Below are positions 35,065-37,800 of a stretch of 64,000 nt of DNA, piece by piece. The notes below the pieces were generated by a model that was not told where the DNA came from, searched no databases, and saw only the letters and a list, made by a program, of their open reading frames with translations. The stretch's first letter is position 1, and every line of letters starts with the position of its first letter. Source of the DNA: Lacticaseibacillus parakribbianus (lineage in GTDB: Bacteria; Bacillota; Bacilli; Lactobacillales; Lactobacillaceae); assembly GCF_025490915.1 (NCBI RefSeq), contig NZ_JANQBA010000002.1, positions 1-64,000 of the forward strand, written 5' to 3'. The translations under genes and the position numbers were made by a program.

Positions 35065-36030
35065 TTACTTGGCGGCGTCGGCCGCGTCTTGAGCGGTGAT
35101 GCCGAACGCCTTCATCATCTTCTCGTTTTTAATCACGGTGACCTTGGCCGGCGCCTCGACGGCCAGCTGCTTGACCTTTTGGCCGCGCAGGATCTTCACG
35201 GCCAGCCGCCCGGTTTGCCGCCCCAGCTCCTTGTAATCGATGCCGATGTTGGCGACGCCGCCGTCTTCAACCATAGTCGAGGCCGCCGGCACTACCGGCA
35301 CCTTTTTGGCCAAGGACACCTTGCCGACCGTGGCCATCGCCGCGGCGACGGTGTTGTCCGTCGGCGCGTAGATCACGTCGCTTGAGCCGGCCAGGGACTC
35401 CATCGCCTGCTGCACGTCGTTGGTCGAGGCGACGGTTCGCTTGGTCACCTTGAGCCCCAGCTGCTTTGCGGCCTTCTCGGCGGCCTGGACCTGGACGATC
35501 GAGTTTTGCTCGGCGGCGTTGTAGATCATGCCGACCGTCTTGGCCTTGGGGAAGAGCTTGTGCATGTAGCTGACCTGGGCGGGGATGTCGACCAGGTCGA
35601 CGACGCCGGTGACGTTCTTGTCCGGGGCCTTGAGGTCATCGACCAGCCCGGCCGCCTTGGGGTCGGTGACGGCGGTGAAGACCATCGGCGTCTGGTTGTC
35701 TTCCTTGAGCAGCGCCTGGGCCGCCGGGGTGGCAATCGCCAAGTTGACGTCGTTGTCATCCTTGGCCAAGCGTTCGCTCATCGTCTTCAAGTTGGCCTGG
35801 TCGCCTTGCGCGTTGACGTAATCGATCTGGACCTTCTTGCCCTTGTAGCCAGCCTTGGCCAGCGCCTGGGTGAAGCCCTGCCGCGCGTCGGTCAAGGCGG
35901 TTTGGTCGATCAGCTGCAGCACCCCGATACGCACGGTGCCGTCGTCGGCCTGGGCCTTCTTGCCGCAAGCGGCGAGGGTCAACAGCATCGCGGCGGCTGC
36001 CACGCCGGTCAAAACTTTGGTCATCTTCAT
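35065..36030 (-). CDS. TrpX-family lipoprotein substrate-binding protein, Phe-attenuated copy
   Basis: A 321-residue lipoprotein. The signal peptide ends in LTLAAC (lipidated Cys about 22) followed by GKK. The binding domain begins VRIGVLQLIDQTALTDAR and contains QIDYVNAQGDQANL and FTAVTDPKAAGLV, as in the TrpX family (COG2984). The ATG at 36030 has AGGAGG 10 bases upstream; an apparent longer frame only runs into the leader. The mRNA leader carries a Phe-rich peptide and attenuator, so phenylalanine is the predicted ligand. This is inference from regulation, not from the binding pocket. Permease and ATPase genes follow. Confidence 0.9.
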   Translation of the reverse strand: MKMTKVLTGVAAAAMLLTLAACGKKAQADDGTVRIGVLQLIDQTALTDARQGFTQALAKAGYKGKKVQIDYVNAQGDQANLKTMSERLAKDDNDVNLAIATPAAQALLKEDNQTPMVFTAVTDPKAAGLVDDLKAPDKNVTGVVDLVDIPAQVSYMHKLFPKAKTVGMIYNAAEQNSIVQVQAAEKAAKQLGLKVTKRTVASTNDVQQAMESLAGSSDVIYAPTDNTVAAAMATVGKVSLAKKVPVVPAASTMVEDGGVANIGIDYKELGRQTGRLAVKILRGQKVKQLAVEAPAKVTVIKNEKMMKAFGITAQDAADAAK

Positions 36031-36061
36031 GATATTTCTTCCTCCTGAGTTGTCTGACTGA

Positions 36062-36105
36062 CAAAAAACGGCCAGCCACGGGGACACAATTCCACGTGGC
36101 TGGCC
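36062..36105 (-). terminator. Attenuator terminator (hairpin 3) before the Phe-linked binding protein
   Basis: GGCCAGCCACG (36070-36080) pairs with CGTGGCTGGCC (36095-36105), followed by six T on the minus strand, 32 bases before the start codon. It precedes rather than follows the gene, which marks it as a conditional terminator. Confidence 0.88.
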
Positions 36106-36218
36106 ATCGATTTTTTCCGGAAAAAGAAAGGCCACATGGATTGTGTTAATCCATGTGGCGGTTGATTGCACATTTAACTGCGCCGGCCTCATGGATGTGA
36201 ACCGCGGTTCACATCCAT
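36062..36218 (-). promoter_or_regulatory. Attenuator region with three alternating hairpins (Phe)
   Basis: After the leader ORF stop come hairpin 1 (36218-36191, a perfect 28-base palindrome), hairpin 2 (36158-36132, CCACATGGATT with AATCCATGTGG, then a T-rich tail) and hairpin 3 (the terminator). The second arm of hairpin 1 (ATCCAT) can instead pair with ATGGAT of hairpin 2. The second arm of hairpin 2 (CCATGTGG) can pair with CCACGTGG at the start of hairpin 3. Ribosome stalling on Phe codons would favour these alternatives and so transcription into the transporter genes. Confidence 0.8.
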
Positions 36219-36233
36219 TGGGGATGCGGACCG

Positions 36234-36296
36234 CTATCCGAAGAAAAAGCCGGCGAAAAAGGCGCGATTCAGTTGTGTTGGCATTGCTTGGTTCAT
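36234..36296 (-). CDS. Phe-rich leader peptide
   Basis: A 20-residue ORF, MNQAMPTQLNRAFFAGFFFG, ending in TAG. Five of its seven codons 13-19 are Phe. AAGGAG lies 8 bases before the ATG and a near-consensus promoter 45 bases before it. It is followed by an attenuator and then by the binding protein gene. The size, Phe run near the end and following hairpins are those of an amino-acid leader peptide such as PheL or TrpL. The segment PTQLN is shared with the Tyr-rich leader upstream of the paralogous gene. Confidence 0.88.
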   Translation of the reverse strand: MNQAMPTQLNRAFFAGFFFG

Positions 36297-36341
36297 GGTC
36301 AACACTCCTTTGACATTACCAGTTGTTCTGGTATGTTTACG

Positions 36342-36370
36342 AGAATACACTCATAATTTTCTCATGTCAA
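36342..36370 (-). promoter_or_regulatory. Promoter of the Phe leader and transporter operon
   Basis: On the minus strand TTGACA at 36370-36365, a 17-base spacer, and TATTCT at 36347-36342. It lies between the stop of the Tyr-linked binding protein and the Phe leader, so the permease and ATPase genes have their own promoter. Confidence 0.88.
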
Positions 36371-36420
36371 GGTCAAATCTTTCGCACGGTGCTTCGGATC
36401 AGGAGAAACGGGATTCAGGG

Positions 36421-37386
36421 TTACTTGGCGGCCGCCTCGACCTGCGCTTGGGTCAGGTTGAACAGCTGCATCCGGTGCTTGTTGGTGACCAAAGACGTCT
36501 TGGCCGGAGCCTCAACGGCGAGGTCCTTCACCTTCTTGCCCTTGATGATCTTGATGGCCAGCTTGGCCGCCTGCCGCCCGAGGTCCTCGTAGTTGATGCC
36601 CTGCGTCGCCACGCCGCCGGTTTTGATCATCGTCGCGTCGGCGTTGACCACCGGCACCTTGGCCGCCTCGGAGACCTTGCCGATGGTCGGCATCGCCGCC
36701 GCGGCCACGTTGTCGGTTGGGATGTAAATCGCGTCGGCCTGCTTGGCCAGCGCCTCTGCGGCCTGCTGCACGTCGTTGGTCGTCGCCGCGGTCTTGACCA
36801 CCGCCTTGAGCCCCAGCTTCTTCAGCTCCTTTTTGGCCTGGGCAATCTGGACCACCGAGTTCTCCTCGGCGGCGTTGTAGAGCAGCCCGATGCGCTTGGC
36901 CTGCGGGAACAGCTTGTGGGTGAAATCGATTTGGCCGGCGACATCCACGGCGTCGGTGACGCCGGTCGCGTTCAGGTCCGGCGCGTCAACGTCTGAGACC
37001 AACCCCGCGGCCTTGGGGTCGGTGACGGCGGTGAAGAGCATCGGCGTCTTGGCGTCCTCTTTTTGCAGCGCCTGGGCCGCCGGGGTCGCAATCGCCAGGT
37101 TCAAGACGTTGCCGTCCTTGGCCAGCTGCTGGCTCATCGATTTCAGGTTGGCCTGATCGCCTTGCGCGTTGACGTAATCGATCTGCACCTTCTTGCCCTT
37201 GTAGCCGGCGGCGGCGAGCTCCTCGGTGAAGCCCTTCCGCGCGGCGTTCAAGGCGCTTTGGTCGATCAGCTGCAGGATGCCAATCTTGACGGTGTTCTTG
37301 TCTGCGGCCTGCTTCTTGCCGCAGGCGGCAAGGCTCAAGACGGCGGCGACGGTGGCGAGACTCAGTGCGATTTTCTTCAGCTTCAT
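36421..37386 (-). CDS. TrpX-family lipoprotein substrate-binding protein, Tyr-attenuated copy
   Basis: A 321-residue lipoprotein of exactly the same length as its neighbour at 35065 and closely similar throughout (VKIGILQLIDQSALNAAR; QIDYVNAQGDQANLKSM; FTAVTDPKAAGLV). The lipobox is LSLAAC. GAGGAG lies 7 bases before the ATG. Its leader carries a Tyr-rich peptide and attenuator, so tyrosine is the predicted ligand. No permease or ATPase of its own follows; it probably uses those at 33245-34955. No terminator is visible between it and the Phe promoter, so readthrough could also feed the downstream operon. Confidence 0.9.
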   Translation of the reverse strand: MKLKKIALSLATVAAVLSLAACGKKQAADKNTVKIGILQLIDQSALNAARKGFTEELAAAGYKGKKVQIDYVNAQGDQANLKSMSQQLAKDGNVLNLAIATPAAQALQKEDAKTPMLFTAVTDPKAAGLVSDVDAPDLNATGVTDAVDVAGQIDFTHKLFPQAKRIGLLYNAAEENSVVQIAQAKKELKKLGLKAVVKTAATTNDVQQAAEALAKQADAIYIPTDNVAAAAMPTIGKVSEAAKVPVVNADATMIKTGGVATQGINYEDLGRQAAKLAIKIIKGKKVKDLAVEAPAKTSLVTNKHRMQLFNLTQAQVEAAAK

Positions 37387-37409
37387 GATAAAACTCCTCT
37401 TCTTTGCCC

Positions 37410-37448
37410 AAAATAAAACGGCCACGGGATGAACACTCCCCGTGACCG
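37410..37448 (-). terminator. Attenuator terminator (hairpin 3) before the Tyr-linked binding protein
   Basis: CGGTCACGGG pairs with CCCGTGGCCG (one G-U pair) on the minus strand, followed by TTTTATTTT, just upstream of the ribosome site of the binding protein gene. Confidence 0.85.
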
Positions 37449-37566
37449 CAGACTTTTCCGGAAAAGAAAGGGCCACCTGGAGAGTATTCGCTCATCCACG
37501 TGGCCATCGCTTGCATGTTGAAATGCTACGACCATATGGATGCAAACCTGCGCGCGGTTTGCATCC
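37410..37566 (-). promoter_or_regulatory. Attenuator region with three alternating hairpins (Tyr)
   Basis: Hairpin 1 (37566-37538, GGATGCAAACC with GGTTTGCATCC), hairpin 2 (37505-37471, GGCCAC with GTGGCC, then a T-rich tail) and hairpin 3 (terminator) occupy the same positions as in the Phe attenuator. Alternative pairings again exist: CATCCA of hairpin 1 with TGGATG of hairpin 2, and GTGGCC of hairpin 2 with GGTCAC of hairpin 3. The sequence has diverged from the Phe copy but the pairing plan is kept. Confidence 0.78.
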
Positions 37567-37580
37567 CCAGACACAAACCG

Positions 37581-37640
37581 CTATCCGTAATAGCCGTAGT
37601 AATACGCGTTATTCAGTTGTGTTGGAATTAATCTTGTCAT
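37581..37640 (-). CDS. Tyr-rich leader peptide
   Basis: A 19-residue ORF, MTRLIPTQLNNAYYYGYYG, ending in TAG; five of residues 13-18 are Tyr. AAGGAG lies 8 bases before the ATG, the same spacing as in the Phe leader. An ATG one codon earlier is possible but too close to the ribosome site. Same position of the aromatic run, same PTQLN-x-A segment and same terminal Gly as the Phe peptide, with Phe replaced by Tyr. Confidence 0.88.
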   Translation of the reverse strand: MTRLIPTQLNNAYYYGYYG

Positions 37641-37671
37641 CATCAACACTCCTTGAACTGGTATGGTGAGA

Positions 37672-37700
37672 ACAATACGCGCATTAGAAAAAAATGTCAA
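37672..37700 (-). promoter_or_regulatory. Promoter of the Tyr leader and binding protein
   Basis: On the minus strand TTGACA at 37700-37695, a 17-base spacer (beginning with seven T), and TATTGT at 37677-37672. Confidence 0.85.
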
Positions 37701-37800
37701 CCCTTAGCGAAAAACTAATTTGGCCGCCGCGGTGACTGGCACCAGCTGCGCCGGCCGCTAGTCGCTCGCCAGTGGCCGCCGCCTAGCCTGCCGCCGCGCC

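Follow-up and report, generated by a model that had tools for sequence, protein, structure and literature searches.

Putative ribosome-mediated attenuators with interchangeable aromatic codons precede importer genes in Lacticaseibacillus and other Lactobacillales

A tyrosine-rich leader ORF ahead of a binding-protein gene in Lacticaseibacillus parakribbianus very probably belongs to a ribosome-mediated transcription attenuator with an extra step, by which a tyrosine importer would be switched on by Tyr shortage. The leader, MTRLIPTQLNNAYYYGYYG followed by a stop codon, occupies positions 37581..37640 of the minus strand and is kept in relatives. Its AAGGAG Shine-Dalgarno (SD) sequence is followed by ATG ATG ACA; 19 codons are counted from the second ATG, and translation could possibly start one ATG earlier. 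A promoter-like site (TTGACA-17-TATTGT, 10 of 12 consensus letters) lies upstream at 37672..37700 on the same strand, and four such sites were found in 36000-37800 as compared with 0.4 in shuffled sequences. Within the window, by which we mean the whole analysed stretch of 64,000 nucleotides (GC = 63%), this ORF and a phenylalanine-rich counterpart are the only two SD-led ORFs of 10-35 codons with at least 5 aromatic residues per 8 codons, and the same scan of dinucleotide shuffles returned none in 19 of 20 shuffles and one in the other. The first-pass annotation had described a 19-codon Tyr-rich leader before the second binding-protein gene and held the replacement of one aromatic residue by another at an equivalent place to be hard to explain by chance; the ORF was found with the ending claimed. 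It had also set YYYGYY in place of FFAGFFF, of which the aromatic exchange stood but the residue-for-residue match proved inexact, owing to Ala-Gly and an extra Phe in the Phe leader. Phe and Tyr leaders differ by a one-codon indel in alignment A1 (see below). The Tyr leader of the window has five Tyr and zero Phe, and reads as a translatable ORF rich in its cognate codon.

The leader heads an operon-like row on the minus strand, comprising Tyr leader, SBP2, Phe leader, SBP1, permease and ATPase. SBP2 (36421..37386), a PF04392 substrate-binding lipoprotein with Asp at the position of CD0873 Glu263, is predicted to bind Tyr, and its best relative among 11 named loci is from L. kribbianus (91%). 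It is followed by a second promoter-like site detected in the promoter scan (TTGACA-17-TATTCT, 36342..36370), the Phe leader MNQAMPTQLNRAFFAGFFFG with its stop codon (36234..36296), which is also kept in relatives, and a Phe attenuator region (36061..36233) whose segments 1-7 and two terminator-like hairpins are supported by a match to model R1 and by covariation. SBP1 (35065..36030), another PF04392 binding protein, has Ala at the contact position and is predicted to bind Phe. The permease (PF02653, 34050..34955) and the ABC ATPase (PF00005, 33245..34048) were assigned by domain matches. PF04392 scores of the two binding proteins were 226.3 and 255.6 bits, with a curated cut-off of 25.9. Behind each leader lie about 200 nucleotides with two hairpins resembling terminators, of which a strict terminator scan lists one per leader (the first in the case of the Phe leader); terminator-like sites in 36000-37800 were not above shuffles (3 versus 2.8). 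A third PF04392 gene in the same genome (L004; G000:C31:62300-64300) stands behind the leader MTQLSTVIKSWQSQQ, again ending in a stop codon, with a Trp codon.

Comparison of relatives divides the RNA behind the Tyr leader, all on the minus strand, into segments with alternative partners. Segment A (CUACGGC, 37593..37599) lies in the Tyr and Gly codons and pairs by covariation with segment X (GGUCGUAG, 37526..37533), the complement of the codon stretch, which is backed by covariation and a swap test. Segment 1 (37570..37580), immediately 3' of the stop codon, was defined by covariation and partial folds, and segments 2 (37555..37566) and 3 (37538..37548) by covariation, the 3' side of segment 3, to 37532, pairing with segment 4 too. 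Segments 4 (37494..37505) and 5 (37471..37483), likewise from covariation, form the 5' and 3' arms of hairpin 4:5 (terminator 1), which is followed by a U-rich tract at 37470-37461. Segment 6 (37431..37447; folding and swap test) can pair with 5 and is the 5' arm of terminator 2, completed by segment 7 and its U-tract (37410..37430; swap test and terminator scan). In the mechanism that we infer, a ribosome would translate the leader while the RNA is still being transcribed. With ample Tyr-tRNA it would get to the stop codon and mask segment 1, upon which 2:3 would pair, leaving 4 for terminator 1, and 6:7 would form terminator 2, keeping the importer off. With scarce Tyr-tRNA the ribosome would halt on the Tyr codons, masking segment A and exposing segment 1; 1:2 would pair, 3 and X would capture 4, and the released segment 5 could capture 6, so that polymerase would proceed into the gene of the Tyr-binding protein. 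In an untranslated leader, A:X closing over 2:3 may keep the switch off, a state that folding of the window Tyr leader does not predict (predicted ON, with 1:2 and 3:4 at 0.99 and A:X at 0.01).

Merging of two stretches that do not differ within the aligned region gave 56 folding rows, and further merging resulted in alignment A1 with 52 sequences. Mutual information among the 56 leaders, calculated for column pairs at least 80% complementary, ranked a 6:7 pair at the top, followed by two codon-stretch:X pairs, in a list that includes non-helix pairs mirroring relatedness. On A1, the OFF structure (A:X, 2:3, h and 4:5) had 95.4% of cells paired, compared with 31-36% in slid versions, and both-side changes in 15 of 30 pairs. 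For A:X, 92.6% of cells were paired and both sides had changed in 6 of 7 pairs, giving the partners CUACGGC/GUCGUAG, CUUCGGC/GCCGAAG, CGCCGGC/GCCGGCG and GACGGC/GCCGUC, with ten rows mispaired at two positions. This pairing could explain why a Gly codon is conserved amid the aromatic run. Within the ON structure, both-side changes were seen in 7 of 10 pairs of 1:2 and in 1 of 11 pairs of 3:4, which is nearly invariant. Swap tests favoured the own partner in 46 (A:X), 48 (1:2), 47 (2:3), 44 (4:5), 50 (5:6) and 54 (6:7) of 56 rows, as compared with 27, 15 and 15 of 56 for the unrelated control pairings A-3, A-4 and X-6, while 3:4 failed the test (22/56). Antiterminator and intrinsic terminator are mutually exclusive in this arrangement and, given the invariance of 3:4, the antiterminator is supported by complementarity rather than covariation. 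A candidate helix between GUGUUG near the leader SD and CAACAC in the Thr-Gln codons fits the window, is missing in several relatives by eye and was rejected.

Full-length equilibrium folding predicted terminators in nearly all rows at any ribosome position, the main exceptions being the leader of L015 and the Tyr leader of the window, in the latter of which terminators fell from 0.77 with the ribosome at the stop codon to 0.47 with a stalled ribosome while 5:6 rose from 0.23 to 0.53. Since this equilibrium is mostly insensitive to the ribosome, the switch would have to be kinetic in most rows, and because the full-length test fails in most rows a partial-transcript test was used. With RNA folded up to segment 4 and a ribosome at the stop codon, 2:3 appeared in 56 of 56 rows (some 3:4 pair also exceeded 0.5 in 24 of them). 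Stalling at the first or second aromatic codon resulted in 1:2 together with 3:4 in 41 and 43 rows, respectively, both window leaders being among the rows that switch and 13-15 of the 56 showing no switch. Untranslated partial RNA gave a mixed picture, with 2:3 in 26, 1:2 in 30 and A:X in 18 of 56 rows.

The third exchange involves hairpins 4:5 and 6:7, both of which are terminator-like in the genus, where segment 5 is able to pair with 6 and the U-tract of terminator 1 pairs, by eye, with an A-rich stretch within 5:6. Eleven leaders from outside the genus (eight FAFSFFFR and three pre-MFS-like) have no clear U-tract after 4:5, their terminator being 6:7. With the last hairpin alone terminator-like in some branches, a relay would be needed there. 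Compared with shuffles, 5:6 reached z<-2 in 9 of these 11 leaders (the misses being L101, at -2.0, and L106, for which the wrong terminator was picked) and at 19 of 20 sRNA_2410-type loci; it did so in only 30 of 56 genus rows, no terminator having been found in 2 of 58. Within the window, the Phe leader scored -2.8 and the Tyr leader a weak -1.4. The pattern fits a relay of fixed parity, in which 2:3, 4:5 and 6:7 would constitute the off state and 1:2, 3:4 and 5:6 the on state.

PF04392 genes are present in 30 of 30 Lacticaseibacillus genomes, own genome included. We analysed 41 stretches from the genus, which cover a minority of the third, Trp-type copies and, of the other matches, all but a few mostly broken ones, and dropped ten broken or partial pieces below 290 amino acids. 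The resulting tree of 67 proteins carried 33 Tyr, 25 Phe and 8 Trp leader labels and one scored '?' (L042), with seven leaders missed by the script added by eye (second genes of L016 and L022, and L035, L037, L040, L041 and L043). The leader label changed four times on this tree (minimum three), and three times without the '?' row, whereas shuffled labels required a mean of 27.6 changes and were as low in 0 of 200 trials. As drawn, Phe types are paraphyletic to Tyr types in a tree that is unrooted and has some long-branched rows. The Phe/Tyr split represents few evolutionary events and not 58 independent ones. Gene orders were YF in 13 cases, YYF in 2, FY in 9 and, in the eight stretches with a single intact gene, Y in 7 and F in 1, and the occurrence of both orders indicates that the leader label tracks the binding protein rather than position. 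Comparing leader residue with binding-protein phylogeny, as the first-pass annotation had proposed, thus showed that Phe and Tyr types co-segregate with clade in either gene order. The random residues in relatives' leaders that would have spoken against it were not found among the 58 Phe/Tyr-clade proteins of at least 290 amino acids, taken from analysed stretches of 29 other genomes and the own one, all 58 of which have a Phe- or Tyr-rich leader. An intact leader ORF stands ahead of some broken binding-protein genes, as seen at L009, L020 and L030.

CD0873, VC_1101 and SP1069 are all sequence relatives of SBP2. CD0873 binds Tyr and contacts its hydroxyl with Glu263, the equivalent of which is Ala in the Phe-binder VC_1101 and the Trp-binder SP1069, and at a second position SP1069 has Gln, the other two sharing Tyr (PMC6816091). 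The Glu263-equivalent in the genus was Asp in 32 of 33 Tyr-leader proteins (Thr in 1), Ala in 25 of 25 Phe-leader proteins, and Val in 6 and Ala in 2 Trp-leader proteins. At the second position, the site of the SP1069 Gln, Trp-leader proteins have Gln (8/8), Phe-leader proteins Tyr (25/25) and Tyr-leader proteins Tyr (28) or Phe (5). In the genus, the predicted ligand-contact residue agrees with the leader residue and, by homology, the cognate amino acid of the leader is predicted to be transported by the products of the genes under its control. Of the 44 hits outside the genus, 29 could be used, nine preceding other genes and six having no usable downstream ORF. Here the Glu263-equivalent was Asp 2, Thr 3 and Ser 1 behind Tyr-only leaders, Ala 2, Val 2 and Ser 8 behind Phe leaders, and Ala 2 and Ser 3 behind mixed Phe/Tyr leaders, while all 6 proteins behind Trp leaders had Gln at the second position. 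Outside the genus Ser thus accompanies all three of the other leader types, and the residue fails to separate the two tandem genes of L090.

Model R1 matched 117 of 397 Lactobacillaceae genomes in 21 of 40 genera (E up to 0.001), the two window copies being the only strong matches in the own genome. The out-of-genus sample consisted of 40 stretches chosen from various genera, which contain 44 hits. The script found an SD-led leader at 42 of the 44; that of L114 (Trp) was found by eye, and L107 has none. Phe, Tyr or Trp leaders precede PF04392-like genes, YYYYWF-like leaders precede shikimate dehydrogenase (aroE; L092, L095) and transketolase (L102, L105, L110), YYYGFYYF-like leaders lie ahead of MFS proteins and an AFAFSLF leader lies ahead of an amino acid permease (L111). 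The domain content of L092, L102, L108, L111, L088 and L112 was tested, and other genes were called by likeness of protein starts. As far as it can be read from sequence, leader make-up fits the downstream gene in the 44 hits. The leaders of L092, L095, L102, L105 and L110 have Tyr, Trp and Phe codons together, as if any aromatic shortage were sensed. At L108, the gene behind a mixed Tyr/Phe leader joins an MFS transporter to a chorismate mutase domain of type II.

Relatives of these leaders carry two Rfam names. RF04312 (trpB motif, SRC-39-1) has over 900 described representatives, which are found in Firmicutes and Fusobacteria and mostly precede an uncharacterised ABC transporter; its authors considered it a strong candidate for a riboswitch and left an attenuator possible (PMC11109978). 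Leader 1 of the window matched RF04312 from segment 2 to terminator 1 with 33.2 bits, below the gathering score of 59; no match was listed for leader 2, and none was found in the own genome at E<=0.001. The family was found in 97 of 295 genomes of the order sample at 1e-5 (52 above cut-off) and in 2 of 398 genomes of the phylum sample, one of which belongs to the order. We checked the best-scoring 40 loci of longer lists, 33 above and 7 below cut-off; many of the genomes are related, so the 40 are not independent. At 39 of them (33/33 above and 6/7 below cut-off) there is an SD-led ORF that has Trp among its nine C-terminal residues, with endings such as WQSR, WQSWRR and WQNWRR and a stop codon starting 12-30 nucleotides 5' of the motif, as compared with 0-3 of 40 in nine shifted controls. 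The codon stretch favoured its own X at 32 of these 39 Trp leaders in the swap test. The Trp leaders of L004, L085 and L112 had no RF04312 match at gathering score. The sole locus without a Trp leader, L157, is outside the order. This weak match (G1004) has a Phe leader-like ORF, KIQIFFNNHFR, before a transporter-like gene, which could be due to chance or distant relationship.

RF02863 (sRNA_2410) is an sRNA of E. faecium from a daptomycin-response study, with two transcripts in Northern blots (PMC5593968). Scores above its cut-off were obtained for two sites in L090 and for 71 of the 295 order genomes. By script, PTQLNNFFFSYFR-type leaders were found at 19 of the best 20 RF02863 loci (none at L161) and in none of six shifted controls. 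These leaders, presumptively termed enterococcal-type, carry Phe/Tyr codons ahead of PF04392-like binding proteins. In 36000-37800, a search up to E=1 found nothing for RF02863 (gathering score 61 bits). From these sequence comparisons we conclude that RF04312 and RF02863 are apparently parts of the same attenuator class, with the window leaders below both cut-offs. We lean toward one old Lactobacillales aromatic attenuator, a relay of three hairpin exchanges that has been re-aimed often, at Tyr, Phe, Trp or combinations of them, by codon exchange with compensation in X and that would include RF04312 and sRNA_2410.

An attenuator might be real and yet respond, in the Tyr copy, to aromatic amino acids generally. 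The unique Tyr-leader ORFs of the genus contain five Phe codons in total, Phe and Tyr are mixed in enterococcal-type and some lactobacillar leaders, and both binding proteins have the permease and ATPase in common; we consider this broader response unlikely in view of a window leader with five Tyr and no Phe and of the Tyr-type contact residue in SBP2. TnaC provides a precedent for nascent-chain arrest in response to Trp. By analogy, a nascent chain with QLN could stall at the stop codon on free Tyr and hold segment 1, keeping termination on. This would suit the finding that 50 of 52 unique ORFs of the genus match T[QH][LFI][NI] (Q in 46, L in 48 and N in 49 of these), that five Leu codons are used in the motif, pointing to conservation at the peptide level, that QLN is also found in enterococcal-type and several Trp leaders, and that no RNA pairing partner for T-Q-L-N was found. 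However, tandem cognate codons exchanged with transporter type, and mixed aromatic runs before common-pathway genes, suit codon starvation better, making arrest an improbable account of the switch. Thr is encoded by ACA in 49 of 50 ORFs, and T-Q-L-N conservation may therefore partly be at the RNA level; Thr-Gln-Leu-Asn may act within the nascent chain. In the window it is encoded at 37611-37622, and it is kept in Phe and Tyr leaders of relatives.

A riboswitch, in which the structured RNA itself would bind the aromatic amino acid and the ORF would be incidental, has been proposed for RF04312 (PMC11109978), the family that leader 1 matches weakly at 33.2 bits. It is very improbable given the Trp-codon ORFs at RF04312 loci (39/40, controls 0-3/40), the covariation of codon stretch with X, and a leader residue that shifts with the predicted ligand while Phe and Tyr rows resemble each other in segments 2-5. 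A tRNA-sensing T-box would resemble trpXYZ of Streptococcus suis, a homologous Trp transporter under T-box control (PMC9382623). Covariance-model searches detected no T-box in the window at gathering score and none up to E=1 in 36000-37800, and this extremely improbable reading was rejected.

The his, trp and pheA operons of enterobacteria are controlled by ribosome-mediated attenuators. The proposed Tyr attenuator resembles them in its leader ORF with tandem cognate codons, its alternating hairpins and its intrinsic terminator, and differs in serving uptake genes, in one extra alternation (5:6/6:7), in the two serial terminator-like hairpins of Lacticaseibacillus and in a codon stretch that pairs with X past segment 3. 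The RF04312 model covers part of this layout, namely 2:3, X and the 4:5 terminator, with Trp-codon leaders just upstream, although it was published as a riboswitch candidate, the leader ORF being unmentioned in the available part of that paper (PMC11109978). Similarly, sRNA_2410 shares leaders of the PTQLNNFFFSYFR type before PF04392-like binding proteins, but was published as an sRNA (PMC5593968), and the window has no match to its model up to E=1. Leader-peptide attenuators for His and Leu exist in Firmicutes (PMC2965389, PMC9413887, PMC5794164) and apply the same principle to other amino acids and genes. The uORF motif uORFC-13-1 of Acholeplasma aroF places Phe codon(s) before a terminator and an aromatic-pathway gene (PMC8632094) in a different organism and gene, and a common layout was not seen. 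S. suis trpXYZ has the transporter family in common and is induced by scarcity of its amino acid, but uses a tRNA-binding RNA without a leader peptide (PMC9382623). Our literature search, which covered few subscription papers, returned no description of leader attenuators for Phe or Tyr from lactobacilli, and the Northern blot of sRNA_2410 was the sole experiment found on such leaders. A ribosome-profiling experiment has been reported for L. rhamnosus (PMC8656396). Aromatic regulation in low-GC Gram-positives was reportedly treated by Panina et al. in 2003.

New relative to the first-pass annotation are the putative RNA switch, the Trp-type paralogue as a third copy (L004) and the Rfam names of relatives. 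The attenuator reading would supply a mechanism both for an orphan riboswitch candidate, of which over 900 representatives have been published, and for an enterococcal sRNA detected by Northern blotting, and a nearby leader peptide might allow a guess at what unnamed importers and permeases for amino acids transport. The adjacent Tyr and Phe copies, together with the Trp copy elsewhere in the genome, represent natural matched pairs that would allow study of how ribosome position is relayed along several alternating hairpins. The Trp copy (L004) is trpX-like, with a pocket Gln, a Trp-codon leader (SWQSQQ) and hairpins of similar style. At L118, an ORF resembling a group II intron maturase by eye (about 1600-2500) lies directly behind the terminator of a Trp leader.
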